Of a stretch of 64,000 nucleotides of DNA, positions 54,500-64,000 are shown piece after piece (the stretch's first letter is position 1; the number at the start of each line of letters is the position of its first letter). The notes under the pieces were generated by a model. That model had not been told where the DNA came from. It did not search any database and saw nothing but the letters and a program-made list of their open reading frames with translations. This stretch comes from Lachnospiraceae bacterium (GTDB taxonomy: Bacteria; Bacillota; Clostridia; Lachnospirales; Lachnospiraceae), in assembly GCA_024691125.1 (NCBI GenBank), contig JAILNV010000016.1, forward strand, positions 62,001 through 126,000, written 5' to 3'. Made by a program: the position numbers and the translations under genes.

Positions 54500-56914
54500 T
54501 TAAGCCTCCTTAAGGATATTCGTCGTAAGTTTGTCAGCTTCTTTGTACTTTTTAAAGAAAAGCATATAAATAATTGCTCCCAGTGCTGCGAATGCGATAA
54601 CCACACCCGGCACGCTCACGTTTCCGGTAAACATTCCGCCGAACTGATTTATCATAAATGCTATAACATATGCGAACCCGCACTGATAACCTATTGCGAA
54701 CCATGTCCATTTAGTATTGTTCATCTCACGCTTTATCGCTCCTATTGCGGCAAAGCATGGTGCGCAGAGCAGATTAAATACCAGGAACGAAAAACCTGTA
54801 ACGCCTGTAAATGCCAGTGACAGTGACTGCCATGCCGTCATTTCCCCGCCCCCGTAGAGGATTCCCATGGTTCCCACGATATTTTCCTTGGCAACAAGTC
54901 CTGTGATGGATGCTACGGCCGCCTGCCAGTTACCCCATCCGAGAGGTATGAATATCCAGGCTATGGCATTGCCGAGCTTCGCAAGAATCGAGAGCTCCAG
55001 CTCATCCTCTGACAGCATTCTGAAACCGTCAGCCGTAAATCCGAAGTAGCTTGTGAACCATACAACGATCGTTGACAAAAGAATTATCGTACCGGCCTTC
55101 TTAATGAATGACCAGCCGCGCTCCCACATGGATCTTAGTACATTGCCTATTGTCGGCATATGATATGCCGGAAGCTCCATTACGAAGGGAGCCGGATCGC
55201 CTGCAAACATTCTGGTCTTCTTAAGTATGATACCCGAAACAACGATGGCTGCCATTCCTATAAAATACGCCGAAGTCGATACCCATGCAGATCCGCCGAA
55301 TATCGCTCCTGCTATCATCGCTATGAAAGGAACCTTGGCACCGCATGGAATGAAGGTCGTGGTCATGATCGTCATCCGTCGGTCACGTTCATTTTCGATC
55401 GTCCGGCTTGCCATTACTCCGGGAACACCGCATCCCACACCGATAAGCATGGGGATGAATGATTTGCCCGAAAGTCCGAACCTTCTGAACACACGGTCAA
55501 GGACGAATGCGATCCTCGCCATATATCCGCATGCCTCAAGAAAAGCAAGCATCAGGAAGAGTACGAGCATCTGGGGAACGAAGCCGAGCACTGCACCGAC
55601 TCCCGCTACTATACCGTCAAGTATAAGGCCCTTAAGCCAGTCAGCAGCCCCTGCCGCATCGAGCCAGGATTCAACCAGTGCGGGAACTCCCGGGATCCAC
55701 GTTCCGTAATCTGCGGGATCCGGCTCATCACCGATCTCCTCAAGCGTCTTAACCGCTTCTTCGTAGCCTTCCACACTTGCAGTTTCTTCTACGGTTTCCA
55801 GCGTTTCTTCGTCTTCCACGGCATATGTGAATTCACCTGCCGGCTCACTTCCGGTTTCCACAACATATGCATCATATCCGTCCACGATGGCCGATGCCTC
55901 GGCATACCTCTCTGCTATCTCTCCGTATCCGCCGTCATTTCCGAACAGATGGAAGCCATCTCCGAATACGCAGTCGTTGGTAAAATCGGTAGCCGGGGCT
56001 CCTACGCCGACCATGGCTATCCAGTATACCGCAAACATAACAGCAGCAAATATAATAAGACCCAGAAATCTGTTGGTCACAATCCTGTCGATCTTATCGG
56101 AAGTGGTAAGGGCTCCTGCGTTTTTCTTATTATAGCATGACTTAATGACCTCTGCGATATAAATATAGCGCTCATTTGTGATAATACTCTCGGCATCATC
56201 ATCAAGCTCCTTCTCGGCAGCCTTAATATCATTCTCTATATGGGAAAGGGTGTCCGAAGGGATCTTCATCTGCTCAAGAACCTTATCATCCCTTTCGAAT
56301 ATCTTTATCGCATACCACCTCTGGCGTTCCTCTGGCATATCGTGCAGTACCGCTTCCTCAATATGCGCGATGGCGTGTTCAACCGGTCCCGAAAACCTGT
56401 GATTCGGAACGGTTTTGGCACCCCCGGCTGCCTTGATGGCTTCCTCGGCGGCCTCGGTAATACCCGTACCCTTAAGCGCCGATATGGTTACCACCCTGCA
56501 TCCGAGCTGCCTTGACAGCTCATCGATCTTTATCTTATCACCGTTCTTATTGACGATATCAATCATATTTACCGCCGCAACCACCGGAATTCCGAGCTCC
56601 GTAAGCTGAGTGGTAAGATACAGATTTCGTTCAAGATTGGTTCCGTCTATGATATTAAGAATCACATCCGGGCGTTCGTTAATAAGGTAATTTCTTGCCA
56701 CCACCTCTTCAAGCGTATATGGCGACAGAGAGTAGATGCCGGGAAGGTCTGTTATGATCACATCATCATGCTTCTTAAGCTTTCCCTCCTTCTTCTCGAC
56801 CGTTACTCCGGGCCAGTTCCCGACGAACTGGTTCGAGCCTGTCAGGGCATTGAACAGCGTTGTCTTACCGCAGTTCGGATTTCCCGCAAGTGCTATTCGC
56901 GTACTCATTTTCAT
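54500..56914 (-). CDS. feoB: Ferrous iron transport protein FeoB
   Basis: ALAGNPNCGKTTLFNALTGSNQFVGNWPGVTVEKKEG; GCGVPGVMASRTIENERDRRMTIMTTTFIPCGAKVPF. Confidence 0.97.
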   Translation of the reverse strand: MKMSTRIALAGNPNCGKTTLFNALTGSNQFVGNWPGVTVEKKEGKLKKHDDVIITDLPGIYSLSPYTLEEVVARNYLINERPDVILNIIDGTNLERNLYLTTQLTELGIPVVAAVNMIDIVNKNGDKIKIDELSRQLGCRVVTISALKGTGITEAAEEAIKAAGGAKTVPNHRFSGPVEHAIAHIEEAVLHDMPEERQRWYAIKIFERDDKVLEQMKIPSDTLSHIENDIKAAEKELDDDAESIITNERYIYIAEVIKSCYNKKNAGALTTSDKIDRIVTNRFLGLIIFAAVMFAVYWIAMVGVGAPATDFTNDCVFGDGFHLFGNDGGYGEIAERYAEASAIVDGYDAYVVETGSEPAGEFTYAVEDEETLETVEETASVEGYEEAVKTLEEIGDEPDPADYGTWIPGVPALVESWLDAAGAADWLKGLILDGIVAGVGAVLGFVPQMLVLFLMLAFLEACGYMARIAFVLDRVFRRFGLSGKSFIPMLIGVGCGVPGVMASRTIENERDRRMTIMTTTFIPCGAKVPFIAMIAGAIFGGSAWVSTSAYFIGMAAIVVSGIILKKTRMFAGDPAPFVMELPAYHMPTIGNVLRSMWERGWSFIKKAGTIILLSTIVVWFTSYFGFTADGFRMLSEDELELSILAKLGNAIAWIFIPLGWGNWQAAVASITGLVAKENIVGTMGILYGGGEMTAWQSLSLAFTGVTGFSFLVFNLLCAPCFAAIGAIKREMNNTKWTWFAIGYQCGFAYVIAFMINQFGGMFTGNVSVPGVVIAFAALGAIIYMLFFKKYKEADKLTTNILKEA

Positions 56915-56942
56915 TCCTCCATTCAGTATTCAATACTTTATT

Positions 56943-57164
56943 TCACTCTACCTCTATCATCTCGGCATCTGCCTTACGCAATGAAAGCTCGTAATTCCTT
57001 ACGGTTACCTCTATGGGATCACCGAGCGGCGCCACCTTACGCACATACACGGGAGTATTCTTCGTGATTCCCATGTCCATTATCCTTCTCTTAACAGCAC
57101 CTTCCCCGTGCAGCTTTACGACCGTTGCCGTATCCCCGATCTTAACATCTCTGAGTGTTTTCAT
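56943..57164 (-). CDS. feoA: FeoA domain protein
   Basis: MKTLRDVKIGDTATVVKLHGEGAVKRRIMDMGITKNTPVYVRKVAPLGDPIEVTVRNYELSLRKADA. Confidence 0.95.
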   Translation of the reverse strand: MKTLRDVKIGDTATVVKLHGEGAVKRRIMDMGITKNTPVYVRKVAPLGDPIEVTVRNYELSLRKADAEMIEVE

Positions 57165-57183
57165 TATTTCCCTCCTATACCGC

Positions 57184-57396
57184 CTAAACCATGATCTTCC
57201 TTGCCAGTTCTTCACTTACGGCCACCCTGCTTTCCTTGACCTTTACTATCAGATTGGATCCAAGCGCGCTGACGATACTCACCTCTCCTCCTACGTTGAA
57301 TCCCAGGTTCTCAAGATGCTTCTTCACCTCGGGGCTTCCTCCTATCTTCTTTATGATCTGTGGCTTTTCCGGTTCCGCGTAATTAAGTGGCATCAT
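57184..57396 (-). CDS. feoA: FeoA domain protein (second copy)
   Basis: MMPLNYAEPEKPQIIKKIGGSPEVKKHLENLGFNVGGEVSIVSALGSNLIVKVKESRVAVSEELARKIMV; AAGGAGGG RBS. Confidence 0.92.
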   Translation of the reverse strand: MMPLNYAEPEKPQIIKKIGGSPEVKKHLENLGFNVGGEVSIVSALGSNLIVKVKESRVAVSEELARKIMV

Positions 57397-57417
57397 CAGT
57401 TCCCTCCTTAATGAGCA

Positions 57418-57500
57418 ATTAGCAAAAGCTAACTCTTGTTCAAAAAATAAGTTAGCATCATCTAACCATGAATTATAGTTAGATATCGCTAACCTGTCAA
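57418..57500 (-). promoter_or_regulatory. feo operon promoter TTGACA-N17-TATAAT with three TTAG-N6-CTAAC operators
   Basis: -35 57495-57500, -10 57472-57477; operators 57478-57493, 57451-57466, 57418-57433. Confidence 0.88.
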
Positions 57501-57535
57501 GAAAAAAATTTTCTGTTATACCTATACCCGAGTCA

Positions 57536-58888
57536 CTACACAGTATAAAACGTATATCCGCTCTTACCTTTCCGCTTGGTTTCATACAGAGCTTTATCCG
57601 CCTGTTTGAACATAGATGCCGGGTCCTTGGCCTGACTGCCATGCGCGATACCGACACTTATTGATGTATCTGCAAGATCATCATCTTTATTGGCAAGCTC
57701 AATATTTATCTGCTTTATCTTGCTTTCTATAAGCTTACTCTGGGCTTCACCCGCATGAACCATAAATACAACGAATTCATCGCCGCCTATCCTGCAGATA
57801 TAATCATCCGAACGGAAATATCCTGTCAGCGTATCAGCCACTTTTTCAAGAACACGGTCTCCCTCTTCATGTCCGTAAGTATCATTTATAGACTTGAAAT
57901 CATCAACATCGATAAGAAGCATAAATGTAAAATTAAGATCTATACTCGACAACAGGAGATCATAACCCGCCCTGTTGTATACTCCGGTAAGTTCATCATG
58001 GGATGCCTTGTAATTAAGCTTGGCGACACTCTTCTTATATACCGAATACATCTTATTGTATGTACGGGCAAGATAGCGGAACTCATTGGCACCCATCTCC
58101 GGAAGGGGATTGTCCTCCTTAATCTTGTCAACAGCCTTGAGTATGGGTTTTATACCAAGTCTTGATGTAAGCCATACCATAAACAGGATAGAGAAACCCT
58201 GAAGTAAGATTATAAATCTTCCTACCCTGATCTCTGCTCTCATATTGCTGACCGATCCGCGCTCCTCATTACGGGTCAGGGTTTCCAGCTCATGAAGGCT
58301 CTCCTTCATGTTCGACCGGATCACATCCTTCTGACGGTAATACTCCTCACCCAATACCATTTCCGCTGCCAGCTTCATCTTCTCATCAGGATCAAGAGCC
58401 GCATCCTCCCTGGATATCTCGTGATTCTTAAGGATTTCGGGATAATCCGTATATCCCTTAGCCTCTATCACCAGCTTCATCGCATAATATTCCCTGTCCA
58501 TTAACGACTTGGATGCTTCCATCGCTTCCTTTAAATGCGCCAGGGCAGTTGCGCTTTCGGGGTTCTTCGACATCCGGGCTATGGCATTTTCCCTTCTGTT
58601 TGTTATGAACGCCTCGGTGAAGTAATCGTTAAGGTACTCCATATTGCCGTCAAGCGTGAAACACTGAACCTTCTCGGTCAGGTAATCGGATGCATCCATC
58701 AGCTCATATGCCGCCTTGTCAAGTGAAATATATTCATCTGTAGCCTCGGACATATCCGCAAATGTTGAGGTAAGCCTGAAGGTTGAATAGATCATCAGTC
58801 CGGTTATGATCATCGCGACCACAACCATCCAAATATATACTGTTCTTAATGAAATCCCGTCTTTTTTAATTCTTTCTATAATTTTCAT
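57536..58888 (-). CDS. Membrane-bound diguanylate cyclase (GGDEF)
   Basis: Two TM segments flanking an extracytoplasmic helical sensor; CRIGGDEFVVFM intact. Confidence 0.93.
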   Translation of the reverse strand: MKIIERIKKDGISLRTVYIWMVVVAMIITGLMIYSTFRLTSTFADMSEATDEYISLDKAAYELMDASDYLTEKVQCFTLDGNMEYLNDYFTEAFITNRRENAIARMSKNPESATALAHLKEAMEASKSLMDREYYAMKLVIEAKGYTDYPEILKNHEISREDAALDPDEKMKLAAEMVLGEEYYRQKDVIRSNMKESLHELETLTRNEERGSVSNMRAEIRVGRFIILLQGFSILFMVWLTSRLGIKPILKAVDKIKEDNPLPEMGANEFRYLARTYNKMYSVYKKSVAKLNYKASHDELTGVYNRAGYDLLLSSIDLNFTFMLLIDVDDFKSINDTYGHEEGDRVLEKVADTLTGYFRSDDYICRIGGDEFVVFMVHAGEAQSKLIESKIKQINIELANKDDDLADTSISVGIAHGSQAKDPASMFKQADKALYETKRKGKSGYTFYTV

Positions 58889-59120: not shown

Positions 59121-60266
59121 TCACAGGAGCGCACATTCAACCTCCATATTGCTCCATACGTGTTCCACACGCTCCTCACCGCTGATACCCGTCATAATGA
59201 CTTCATTTATCTGTGTTTTAAATGATACCGACTTAAGTCCGTCCAGTATCCGGCGTTTGGGATTTATATCATCTGTCCCGATAACAAGCATTGAATAATC
59301 CCTGTTGGCTTCCGAACAGATAAAGGCAAGCAGCATTCTGTACAACTCCTCATCATCACCATCCGCAAGCAAAAAAGAAATATACGCTATCGGTGCCTGT
59401 TCATCATCTTCCGGAATACGGATATAGCCAAGATAAGGCAAAACAGGATTCAGAAACCGCAGCAGTGCATATATTCCGTGGCACTCCTTTACTATATACT
59501 GCTTAACGTTACCCCTGTTCCACAATGCGCCTGCTGCCACTATCCTTCCGTTACGCTTAAGCAGGAAGAAATCCTCTGCCTTAAGCTCACCTGCATCGGA
59601 CAGCCTGTCAAGCACCGGAAACATATCCCTGTGCCTTCCGTTACGCGTAAGGAAATCTATGATATCCCTCTCATCCTCAGCTCTGCCCCTCACTCTTTCC
59701 ACTGTACTCAGTGAATCCGAATGCCTCACACGTACCCCCGGACTTATGATATAAGTCTTATATCCGCATATTGGTATCGAATAAGGCATATATCTTCTCT
59801 TCTTATGCAGCATCATCTGCACGCTGTCATTATCATCAAGCAGGGAACAGTAATAGTATTCGCAGTCAACCGCCGTGCACATTTCCTTAAACATCTCATG
59901 CCAGTTGATATTTAAGTCACAGTCCTTACGGCGTTTCATATTCGTGACATAGCATACTCTTGTCTCCCTGCCGCCTATATACATCCTTCTCGGGATCGCA
60001 GCGATGGTTGCGGTTATCCTTCCTTCTGCCCTGATCACGCCCACTCTGGCTTCCTTACTCTCCTTAAGGAACGATTCACAGGGATTATCCCTTCTCGTAT
60101 ACAGAAGCTTAAGCCCTCCCGGTGTGATATCCGACTCCATGATCTTAAGGATATCTTTGCCGTCGTCCATGTCCGCATATGTGAACCCGCTTCGTAATTT
60201 CTCTTTTGCATCATCTCCGGGCTTAATACTTTCTGCTTTACTTATCTTCATATCCGACATTTTCAT
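59121..60266 (-). CDS. GNAT-like N-acetyltransferase family protein
   Basis: N-terminal half RVGVIRAEGRITATIAAIPRRMYIGGRETRVCYVTNMKRR resembles the GNAT core; no firm subfamily. Confidence 0.5.
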   Translation of the reverse strand: MKMSDMKISKAESIKPGDDAKEKLRSGFTYADMDDGKDILKIMESDITPGGLKLLYTRRDNPCESFLKESKEARVGVIRAEGRITATIAAIPRRMYIGGRETRVCYVTNMKRRKDCDLNINWHEMFKEMCTAVDCEYYYCSLLDDNDSVQMMLHKKRRYMPYSIPICGYKTYIISPGVRVRHSDSLSTVERVRGRAEDERDIIDFLTRNGRHRDMFPVLDRLSDAGELKAEDFFLLKRNGRIVAAGALWNRGNVKQYIVKECHGIYALLRFLNPVLPYLGYIRIPEDDEQAPIAYISFLLADGDDEELYRMLLAFICSEANRDYSMLVIGTDDINPKRRILDGLKSVSFKTQINEVIMTGISGEERVEHVWSNMEVECALL

Positions 60267-60301
60267 AATGCGCTTTACACTTCCGGCTTACTATTCAACA
60301 T

Positions 60302-60330
60302 ATGTAACTATTCAGAACAGCACATATATT
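60302..60330 (-). repeat. 29-nt intergenic near-palindromic repeat, copy 2 (reverse complement of copy 1)
   Basis: ATGTAACTATTCAGAACAGCACATATATT on plus strand. Confidence 0.85.
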
Positions 60331-60397
60331 TTAAAAAACATTTACCAACATATTAAATGATTCAGGGGTCAAAAATATACTTTTTTATGGTGTACGA

Positions 60398-61732
60398 TCA
60401 GTCCATATTCTCCCCTACGGGGATTCCGATACGTTTATCCACCTCGAAATGGAACAGTATATTAATAAACCAGTATGCGAAGTTAATAAGCGGATTCTTC
60501 GTCCTCTTAAAGCAGACCAGCCCTCTCTTAAAGATAGAACCGAATCGGAAGAATTCCTTCTTGTACTTTCTGCACAGTCCGCTTAGCTCCTCAGCAGTGA
60601 CCTGTTTCGGTACGAACGATATCGTTCCGAAGGTATATCCCTCCTGCAGCCACCACTTGTCACAGATGAGCCTGTTCTCCTCCTTAAACCTGTTATACGT
60701 CTCCGTATTGGGGAAGGTCAGCAGATGGTTGAAGGCTATAACGAAGAATTCATGCTTCCTTGAGAACTTAAGCGTATTTATAAAGCTCTGCTCCGTATCG
60801 TCATCAAAGCCGAACACAAAGGACGCATAGATGCTAATTCCCACCGCATGTATCTTCTCTATAAGCTCATCCCTCTCTCCAAGGCGCTGTGTCCATTCCT
60901 TGTTCATCTGTTTTAAATTACCCTGATCTATGGACTCAAAGCCAATGAGCACCATTGAACATCCGCTCTCACGCATGAGCTTAAGGGTCTCATCATCTCT
61001 TGCGATATCGAGTGTGATCTGCGTCGTCCACGTAACCTTTAGCTTCTTTATCTCCTTAAACAGCTCCCTTGCGAAGCTCTTATCCGAAAAGATACTGTCA
61101 TCCACAAGGAAGAAGAGCTTATGTCTGCAGGACTTCATCTCCGAGATTATATCCTCTGTCTCTCTGTGGATGTATTTGGATCCGTAATACTTTGCTATGG
61201 AGCAGAATTCGCAGTTATGATAGCATCCGCGTCCCGTCTCCACCAGTGATACCGGCAGGTATTTCCTCTGCTTGTCGGCATATATGGAACGGTCTGCAAG
61301 CTTATAATCGATACATGGCTTACCTATATACCTTCTCTTAAGGGTTCCCACCCTGGCATCATCTATAAGCTCTCTCATCTGATCGCCGCAGTTGTTTATC
61401 ATGATCGCATCGCAGTACTCCTCGGCTTCATCCGGCATAAGCGTAACGTGATAGCCGCCCATGACGACCTTCCTTCCGCGCTTCCTGAACTCTTCCGCTA
61501 TATGATAGGCTCTCTTGGCGGTATAGGTCTCGACGGTTATCATCACGATATCCGTCTCGGTATCATAGTTGATACCTTCTATCCTGTCGTCATAGAACTC
61601 CCTCTCCACCTCTTTAGGAAGAAGTGTATTCATAACCGCAATTGTGAGCGGTTCCATCAGCCAGGATTTAAGATATTTATCGCCCTTCTTCCTGCCGATC
61701 GCAGGAAGTATAAACGTAACCTTCATCTTCAC
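60398..61732 (-). CDS. B12-binding-domain radical SAM protein
   Basis: N-terminal Rossmann-like cobalamin-binding domain; ETGRGCYHNCEFCS (CX3CX2C); FLVDDSIFSD. Confidence 0.92.
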   Translation of the reverse strand: MKMKVTFILPAIGRKKGDKYLKSWLMEPLTIAVMNTLLPKEVEREFYDDRIEGINYDTETDIVMITVETYTAKRAYHIAEEFRKRGRKVVMGGYHVTLMPDEAEEYCDAIMINNCGDQMRELIDDARVGTLKRRYIGKPCIDYKLADRSIYADKQRKYLPVSLVETGRGCYHNCEFCSIAKYYGSKYIHRETEDIISEMKSCRHKLFFLVDDSIFSDKSFARELFKEIKKLKVTWTTQITLDIARDDETLKLMRESGCSMVLIGFESIDQGNLKQMNKEWTQRLGERDELIEKIHAVGISIYASFVFGFDDDTEQSFINTLKFSRKHEFFVIAFNHLLTFPNTETYNRFKEENRLICDKWWLQEGYTFGTISFVPKQVTAEELSGLCRKYKKEFFRFGSIFKRGLVCFKRTKNPLINFAYWFINILFHFEVDKRIGIPVGENMD

Positions 61733-61770
61733 GCTCCTTATATTTCTAACCTCATATTTTACGATCGCAG

Positions 61771-63153
61771 CTATTCCGTAGCAGAATTATATAATGCCTT
61801 CTCATCTGTCCCGTCCTTCTCCTTACACCCGAACGTCATTCCCTGCTTCTCAAACACTTCCTTCTTAAACACAGGATTATATACTATATATGTGAAGAAT
61901 CTTACCGGATTACGAAGATTGGTCCTTGGCTCCAACATCCTGTAGATTATGGAACCCACACTGTTAAATCTTCTCCTGCACTCAAAGCCTGCCTCGGTAA
62001 GCTCATCAGGCGTCATGTTTTTGGGTATGAATGCAGTATAGTTGAACCTGTACTGTTCATGCAGCCACCATTTCCCGTCATACAGGAGACGTCCTTCCGC
62101 TTTTAACTGCTCATACAGCTCTGTTCCGGGATACGGCATCAGGATATTGTAAGCAGCGAATGTGAACTTATTCTTTCTTGCGAACCTGTAGGTCGCTTCT
62201 ATCGATTCAAGCGTATCCGTATCATGCCCTATCGTAAATGCCGCCCATGTCTGAAGCCCGTAATGCCTGAGCTTCTCTACAGCTTCGGCATAATGATCGT
62301 CCGCGAATTTCTTATTAACGCCCTTATGCATATAGTCAAGGCTCTCCGGCTTAATGGATTCAAAGCCTATCACCAGCCCGAGACACCCGCTCTTAACCAT
62401 AAGCCGCATAAGCTCATCATCATCCAGCATATCAAGGCTCCCCTGGCTTACCCAGTATATCTTAAGCGGTATCAGTGCCCGAAACAGCTCCTTGGCCCTC
62501 TCCTTATCCCCTACTATATTATCGTCCACAAAGAATAAGAGCTTCCTTTTCTGTGAACGTATCTCCGTAACCACCTCATCTATATCTCTGGTAAAATGCC
62601 TTCTTTCAAAGTACACGCTGCTCGCGCAGTATTTACAGCTGTATCTGCAGCCTCTTGAGAACTGAAGAAGTGATATCGGCATATACTTCTTTCCCTTATA
62701 TATGTCGCGCCTTGTTATCACTCCCTTCTGCGGGACACATACAGGCGCGCATTCATATACCTCCTTAAGGGTTCCCGCACGCAGATCCTCGGTCATCTCG
62801 ACCCATTTATCCTCTGCGTCTCCTATCATTATGGAATCCGCATGCTCCTTAACCTCTTCGGGAAGCAGCTTAACATGCATGCCGCCCATCAGTACCTTAA
62901 CCCCATTCCTCCTGTATCCATCGGCGATCTCATATGAGCGCCTGGCTGTGAAGGTCTCCACCGTGATCGCTACAAGATCCGCCGGCTCATTGTACGGTAT
63001 AGGCTCCAGCCTGTCATCATACATGACGACATCTATATCATCGGGTGTAAGCGCCGCCAGAATCCCCAGCTGCAGCGGTTCCATACTGGCATTGTCCACA
63101 TACAGGCTGTGCTCACGTCTCCCTATATTTGGTTTTATGAGAATTATCTTCAT
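61771..63153 (-). CDS. B12-binding-domain radical SAM protein (paralog)
   Basis: FSRGCRYSCKYCAS (CX3CX2C); FFVDDNIVGD; N-terminal MKIILIKPNIGRREHSLYVDNASMEPLQLGILAAL. Confidence 0.92.
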   Translation of the reverse strand: MKIILIKPNIGRREHSLYVDNASMEPLQLGILAALTPDDIDVVMYDDRLEPIPYNEPADLVAITVETFTARRSYEIADGYRRNGVKVLMGGMHVKLLPEEVKEHADSIMIGDAEDKWVEMTEDLRAGTLKEVYECAPVCVPQKGVITRRDIYKGKKYMPISLLQFSRGCRYSCKYCASSVYFERRHFTRDIDEVVTEIRSQKRKLLFFVDDNIVGDKERAKELFRALIPLKIYWVSQGSLDMLDDDELMRLMVKSGCLGLVIGFESIKPESLDYMHKGVNKKFADDHYAEAVEKLRHYGLQTWAAFTIGHDTDTLESIEATYRFARKNKFTFAAYNILMPYPGTELYEQLKAEGRLLYDGKWWLHEQYRFNYTAFIPKNMTPDELTEAGFECRRRFNSVGSIIYRMLEPRTNLRNPVRFFTYIVYNPVFKKEVFEKQGMTFGCKEKDGTDEKALYNSATE

Positions 63154-64000
63154 TCGTTTTCTCCAAGCTCCTTACCCTGTTTACGGTGTATCTCATAACG
63201 TGATATTAAGTTTACCAGCAGAAAAACGACCGTATTAAAGAGGTTTCTATGATTGACTCCTGCCTCAAGCATCCGCTTAAGCATATGGCGGTAACTGTTG
63301 AAATCATATCTTGCTCTTTTACAGCCCTCCGTAAGCTCTTCACCGCTCATCGATTTCGGATAAAACATCGCATCCCCGTATCTGTAACCGGGATCAAGCC
63401 ACCATTTTTCATATTTAAGCATTCCTTCACTGCTCATACGTTTAAACAGTTCTGTCCCCGGCAGGATCATAAGCGGATTGAAATTGGCTACAGCAAGGTT
63501 ATTCCTCATTGCAAAATCATACGTCCTTCTTATCGATTCCGCCGTATCATGATCGTATCCCAGGACGAACATGGCATATATCATGATCCCGTGCTTATAA
63601 ATATTATCTATGGCAGTCTCATATTTAAGTTCATTTTCTTTATATCTTCTGTCCTCTCCGCTATCTGTTTCCGGGCTCTTTGCAGTCTTTTCATCCGCTC
63701 CCGAATGCATCACCCGGATATTGGCGCTCTTATGCATTATCTTAAGATTACGTTCATCCAATGATTCGAAGCCTATGAGAACCATTATGCATCCCGCCTT
63801 ATGCATCAGCTCAAGCAGTTCATCATTGAAGGCAATATCCATGCTTATCTGGCAGGCCCACCTTTTCTTAAGCGGCCGTATCGCATTAAACAGTTCCTTA
63901 GCCGCCTCCTCATTTACAAAGAGATTATCGTCTATAAAGAAGAAGAGCCTCTCCCGTGAGTTCTTAATCTCTTTTACTACATCATCAATGTCCTTCTGCC
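63150..64000 (-). CDS. B12-type radical SAM protein (paralog), 5' part outside window
   Basis: Manual extension from 63842 to the edge: QKDIDDVVKEIKNSRERLFFFIDDNLFVNEEAAKELFNAIRPLKKRWACQISMDIA; ATGA overlap with next gene. Confidence 0.85.
   Translation of the reverse strand, partial: QKDIDDVVKEIKNSRERLFFFIDDNLFVNEEAAKELFNAIRPLKKRWACQISMDIAFNDELLELMHKAGCIMVLIGFESLDERNLKIMHKSANIRVMHSGADEKTAKSPETDSGEDRRYKENELKYETAIDNIYKHGIMIYAMFVLGYDHDTAESIRRTYDFAMRNNLAVANFNPLMILPGTELFKRMSSEGMLKYEKWWLDPGYRYGDAMFYPKSMSGEELTEGCKRARYDFNSYRHMLKRMLEAGVNHRNLFNTVVFLLVNLISRYEIHRKQGKELGENE

Follow-up and report, generated by a model that had tools for sequence, protein, structure and literature searches.

Genes at the locus

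The window analysed here, a stretch of 64,000 nucleotides (C39:62001-126000) from the 3.5-Mb draft genome of a gut bacterium, ends within a cassette of four radical SAM (rSAM) genes, named A to D, which are followed by the acyltransferase gene G (Table 1). The four ORFs of the cassette within the window (D, C, B and the GNAT-like G) were located where the first-pass annotation had placed them, the 4-bp overlap of B and C was confirmed and the spacing between C and D was measured at 38 bp rather than the earlier 37 bp. The array was also correctly described as running past the window end, and reading on added rSAM A, an alpha/beta-hydrolase and a permease, so the earlier description was right but truncated. 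MKVTFILPAIG is the conserved start of D, and the listed GTG start probably lies two codons further upstream. The alpha/beta-hydrolase ORF overlaps A solely when A is taken in its long ORF form. All four rSAM proteins matched the Pfam family PF04055 (E 2e-13 to 3e-19). An FeoB-like gene and two small ORFs resembling FeoA, identified by eye, adjoin the cassette (window 54500-57657).

Table 1. Genes of the cassette and their positions in the window or in the extended locus (L001)
Gene	Product	Coordinates	Strand	Remarks
G	Double-GNAT acyltransferase	59121..60266	-	381 aa; ends ECALL-COOH; N-myristoyltransferase/Eis-like predicted fold
D	rSAM, core enzyme	60398..61732	-	444 aa; PF04055 E 2.6e-19
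C	rSAM, accessory	61771..63153	-	460 aa; PF04055 E 3.4e-17; orthologue clade SH-aLRT 100
B	rSAM, accessory	63150..64000 in window; whole gene L001:7151-8641	-	C-terminal part in window; whole protein 496 aa
A	rSAM, core enzyme	L001:8638-9990	same as B	Upstream of B, beyond window
	Alpha/beta-hydrolase	L001:10055-11422	same as B	Upstream of A, beyond window
P	Trp/Tyr-permease-family protein	L001:11510-13000	same as B	Beyond window; aromatic-amino-acid-type permease

Distribution and operon organisation

Gene order was counted over 40 non-redundant loci, 36 of which hold D. The permease gene (P) lay directly before A in 32 of the 40 loci and G directly 3' of D in 35 of the 36, so that the array is not a chance assembly, and exceptions to this order were mostly contig or locus ends or operons of the GH3 type described below. 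The earlier proposal of an array of diverged paralogs linked to an acyltransferase was borne out, and the GNAT-like gene kept its link in other genomes. Architectures included P-A-B-C-D-G, P-A-E-D-G, P-A-D-G, P-A-E-B-C-D-G and a few others, with 4-bp overlaps common. A and D form the core and B, C and a fifth rSAM, E (present for instance in L023), are accessory; one locus (L032) consists of permease-A-D-G alone and lacks C. In two related genomes (L027:8791-10188 and L030:4458-5822) gene C is broken by in-frame stops, which suggests either an assembly error or that these genomes can do without it. The alpha/beta-hydrolase was found in two genomes only and may be incidental to the cassette. 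In Butyrivibrio sp. CB08, ABC transporter genes and genes resembling AraC-type and XRE-type regulators lie between A and E (L051:11364-15953).

Carriers were Lachnospiraceae, Oscillospiraceae, Sedimentibacter and other Clostridia, and a scan of named genomes placed orthologues in rumen Lachnospiraceae, Butyrivibrio, Oscillospiraceae, Family XIII and Peptococcaceae MAGs, Sedimentibacter saalensis and a Clostridiaceae MAG. Cassette-type rSAMs occurred in 11 of the 37 genomes of the bacterium's own genus, its own included, and since the neighbouring genes mostly differed among these carriers the cassette behaves as a discrete unit. In a family sample of 396 genomes, orthologues of A were present in just two further genera (56-71% identity). 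The array is thus larger than earlier described, old, and widespread yet patchy. Carriage by phages was not seen, as nothing there matched D at E 1e-30. Riboswitch control of the cassette was considered and dropped, as no riboswitch match near it exceeded the Rfam gathering score in the 15 loci scanned. Within open-access papers, no description of this gene combination was found.

Radical SAM paralogs

In a tree of 63 rSAM proteins, A, B, C, D and E each formed a single clade (SH-aLRT 99-100), with A and E joined (98) and B, C and D joined (100). The separate clades show that the paralogs are old, and the retention of one member per lineage (A, D) in the core operons indicates that they split before the cassette spread. 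Two motif claims of the first-pass annotation held, as CxxxCxxC was found in every member of groups A to E and no group had DxHxxG at the B12 position; the sole DxHxxG string, DEHGIG, belongs to an insert, specific to its lineage, in the B protein of the window's cassette. An N-terminal B12-binding-like domain had also been noted in the two complete proteins, C and D. Against PF02310 (cut-off 32.1 bits) A scored 46.2 bits, and B (29.3), C (29.8) and D (28.4) fell below the cut-off.

No NCBIfam family cut-off was reached by A to D, including that of any characterised rSAM subfamily. A scored best with BchE, and B, C and D did so with HpnJ, families with which the proteins share a putative B12-like N-terminal domain and an rSAM core with CxxxCxxC, as they do with the ladderane-type family. 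Scores against these three families were 57-110 bits compared with equivalog cut-offs of 360-578, the best being 110.2 bits for D against HpnJ (TIGR03471, cut-off 577.6), 100.8 for A against BchE (TIGR02026, 481.35) and 77.9 for D against the ladderane-type family (TIGR04072, 360), and no hopanoid, chlorophyll or ladderane genes were seen within the cassette. A preprint (2026) groups BchE, HpnJ, OxsB, PbsB and ladderane synthase as non-methylase cobalamin enzymes of ring formation and rearrangement (PMC13142503). As the best named scores of A to D fall mainly in this group, oxidation, cyclisation or rearrangement is preferred here to the methylation suggested earlier.

The terminal acyltransferase

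The predicted structure of G (AF2 pLDDT 88.9, pTM 0.86) is a double GNAT fold, in common with N-myristoyltransferase (NMT) and Eis-like acetyltransferases. The top Foldseek matches were 2i00, 3n7z and NMT structures (E 1e-12 to 1e-10), with 2hv2 also close; we take 2i00, 3n7z and 2hv2 to be Eis-like bacterial GNAT acetyltransferases. G is however only about 10% identical to these proteins, and Pfam gave no NMT family match, a weak match to Acetyltransf_9 and 17.7 bits for PF13527, below the cut-off of 25. An alignment of G (26 rows) was made, and all 40 distinct G proteins, including a relative from Acinetobacter, end in [ED]-x-[AGS]-x-[LI]-COOH. NMT uses its C-terminal carboxylate as general base (PMC4964394), and by analogy these conserved terminal residues suggest that G may use carboxylate catalysis of the same kind. 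The acyl donor could carry acetyl instead of a long acyl chain.

Operons with a GH3 synthetase

Six loci (L079, L086, L102, L104, L113 and a Citrobacter plasmid) contain a GH3 synthetase and the protein f37 within the operon and lack the permease. The GH3 proteins belong to PF03321 (E 1e-49), and their best NCBIfam neighbour was the lyso-ornithine lipid synthetase OlsH (NF052613), at 54.2 bits against a cut-off of 620. OlsH makes N-acyl-ornithine (PMC12493201). A GH3 amide synthetase is common to the OlsH/OlsI ornithine lipid pathway and the related cassettes, and the alpha/beta-hydrolase of the window's cassette is a further likeness, whereas the OlsH/OlsI operon as described (PMC12493201) has neither rSAM nor GNAT. 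The 235-aa f37 shows a weak hhalign alignment (probability 47%, E 2e-4) with the first of the two GNAT domains in G and is tentatively regarded as GNAT-like. It was present in 3 of 299 sampled genomes of the phylum, all three of which also hold G. Permease and GH3 occurred together in no cassette locus (Fisher p 2e-6 on manually compiled counts, with loci treated as unrelated). No GH3 was found in the window's own genome, which ruled out a GH3 gene hidden elsewhere in it. At L113, an rSAM-SPASM protein (L113:269-1540) lies directly before the E-f37-GH3-A operon.

The Citrobacter version is on an IncFIB/IncFII plasmid of Citrobacter portucalensis from a gull (L114, NZ_CP134684.1, 51417-63512) and reads f37-GH3-A-D-G-B-C, then PAP2 and a hypothetical gene, followed on the other strand by E and a fatty-acid desaturase. 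In the tree its five rSAMs fell one each into groups A to E, and a megablast search for the cassette in E. coli gave no match. A record of Acinetobacter baumannii (L115:6159-13838) holds an operon HlyD-MFS-f37-GH3-outer membrane efflux-G without rSAM genes. There f37-GH3-G is joined by a drug-type efflux pump, a setting that would suit export of a small molecule no less than a membrane lipid. Loci with f37 were also found in Burkholderia and Azospirillum.

Proposed product and pathway

We infer a type of product from what was shown of the locus, namely the order of the genes, their conservation and orthology, and the predicted folds and families of their products, and give a little less than an even chance to an operon that builds an N-acylated (amide-linked) lipid or small molecule derived from an amino acid or amine, with oxidation, ring formation or rearrangement by the rSAMs. 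The permease would supply an amino-acid-like building block, and in the GH3 versions an acyl-adenylating amide synthetase with a GNAT-like partner would take its place. A and D, in some operons joined by the optional B, C and E, would next act on unactivated C-H and C-C positions by oxidation, cyclisation or rearrangement, through hydrogen abstraction by the 5'-deoxyadenosyl radical, in the manner of the BchE, HpnJ and ladderane group, and the optional enzymes would give product variants. G would acylate the amine with acyl-CoA or acyl-ACP as donor, its own C-terminal carboxylate serving as general base as in NMT.

An N-acylated product is favoured by the conservation across Clostridia of an operon with the core A-D-G and many overlapping genes, the five old orthologue clades, the NMT/Eis-like double GNAT fold and invariant tail of G, the six operons with a GH3 nearest to OlsH, the presence of G in all three sampled phylum genomes with f37, the PAP2 and desaturase genes on the Citrobacter plasmid, the lack of any cassette locus with both permease and GH3, and the BchE and HpnJ scores of the rSAMs. 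It is weakened by rSAM family scores far under the equivalog cut-offs (100/481 and 110/577 bits), the low score of GH3 against OlsH (54/620 bits) together with a window genome that has no GH3, the alpha/beta-hydrolase in only two genomes, the possibility that G transfers acetyl, and the rSAM-free efflux operon of Acinetobacter. The lipid or small molecule guessed at in the first-pass annotation gained support from the genes for GH3, PAP2 and a desaturase that accompany the cassette in other lineages.

The permease family (aromatic amino-acid transporters), the bacterial Eis-like acetyltransferases among the nearest folds of G and the MFS/HlyD/outer-membrane efflux set beside its Acinetobacter relative would also suit a secreted amino-acid-type antimetabolite, with the active group made by the rSAMs, the permease exporting or re-importing the compound and G a self-resistance N-acetyltransferase of the Eis/AAC kind. 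We consider this unlikely, as G is tied to GH3 and f37 where the permease is missing, the Citrobacter version has lipid-type genes, and a resistance gene should sometimes drift apart from its pathway, but D and G sit side by side in 35 of the 36 loci.

Two further explanations turn on the rSAM enzymes. The cobalamin-dependent methylation cascade first proposed for this array appears improbable: it could account for the B12-like Rossmann domain at the N-terminus, and cobalamin riboswitches occur in 31 of the 37 genomes of the genus, but a scan of 15 cassette loci turned up none and the best named families are non-methylases, though the PhpK methyltransferase family also scores. The absence of DxHxxG counts against it without being decisive. 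The nearest folds to the D model (AF2 pLDDT 88.9) were the rSAM diol dehydratase AprD4 (6fd2, TM 0.71), then, in favour of the cascade, the cobalamin-dependent methylases MgmA, TsrM and CysS with close TM-scores, so that D may or may not use cobalamin. AprD4, to our knowledge, works without cobalamin, and it was among the top PDB sequence matches of A and C. Cobalamin-independent dehydration or redox chemistry of the AprD4 type, with the N-terminal domain a vestigial B12 fold, would explain the sub-threshold PF02310 scores of B, C and D. Its chances seem slim, given that A exceeds that cut-off, the cobalamin-dependent enzymes are structurally about as close, D and AprD4 share 15% identity and the AprD4 equivalog (NF033070) reached at best 55.5 bits (C) against 500.

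RiPP maturation of a peptide or of the conserved C-terminal tail of G is highly improbable: the tail is invariant and a SPASM rSAM adjoins one cassette, but the mostly overlapping or abutting genes leave little space for a precursor gene, as judged from operon gene spacing, and the tail fits catalysis by a C-terminal carboxylate of the NMT type. A link to diabolic acid and Mss, suspected since Butyrivibrio makes such lipids, was dropped because nothing tied it to the cassette.

Implications

Returning to the N-acylated product, it is possible, though on the doubtful side, that the cassettes specify an unrecognised class of lipids or lipid-like compounds whose rings or rearranged carbon skeletons are made by rSAMs, with producers among rumen, gut and sediment Clostridia and also encoded on an enterobacterial plasmid, with variants set by B, C and E. 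If two to five rSAMs of the BchE/HpnJ type do act on a single molecule, they would offer a rare way into anaerobic C-C and ring chemistry, and natural operons that differ by single enzymes (A-D, A-E-D, A-B-C-D and A-E-B-C-D) would allow the pathway to be read step by step. The copy on the Citrobacter plasmid may provide genes fit for laboratory hosts among the enterobacteria. The product, should it be a lipid or small molecule that rumen and gut bacteria make or secrete, may be of consequence in those communities.
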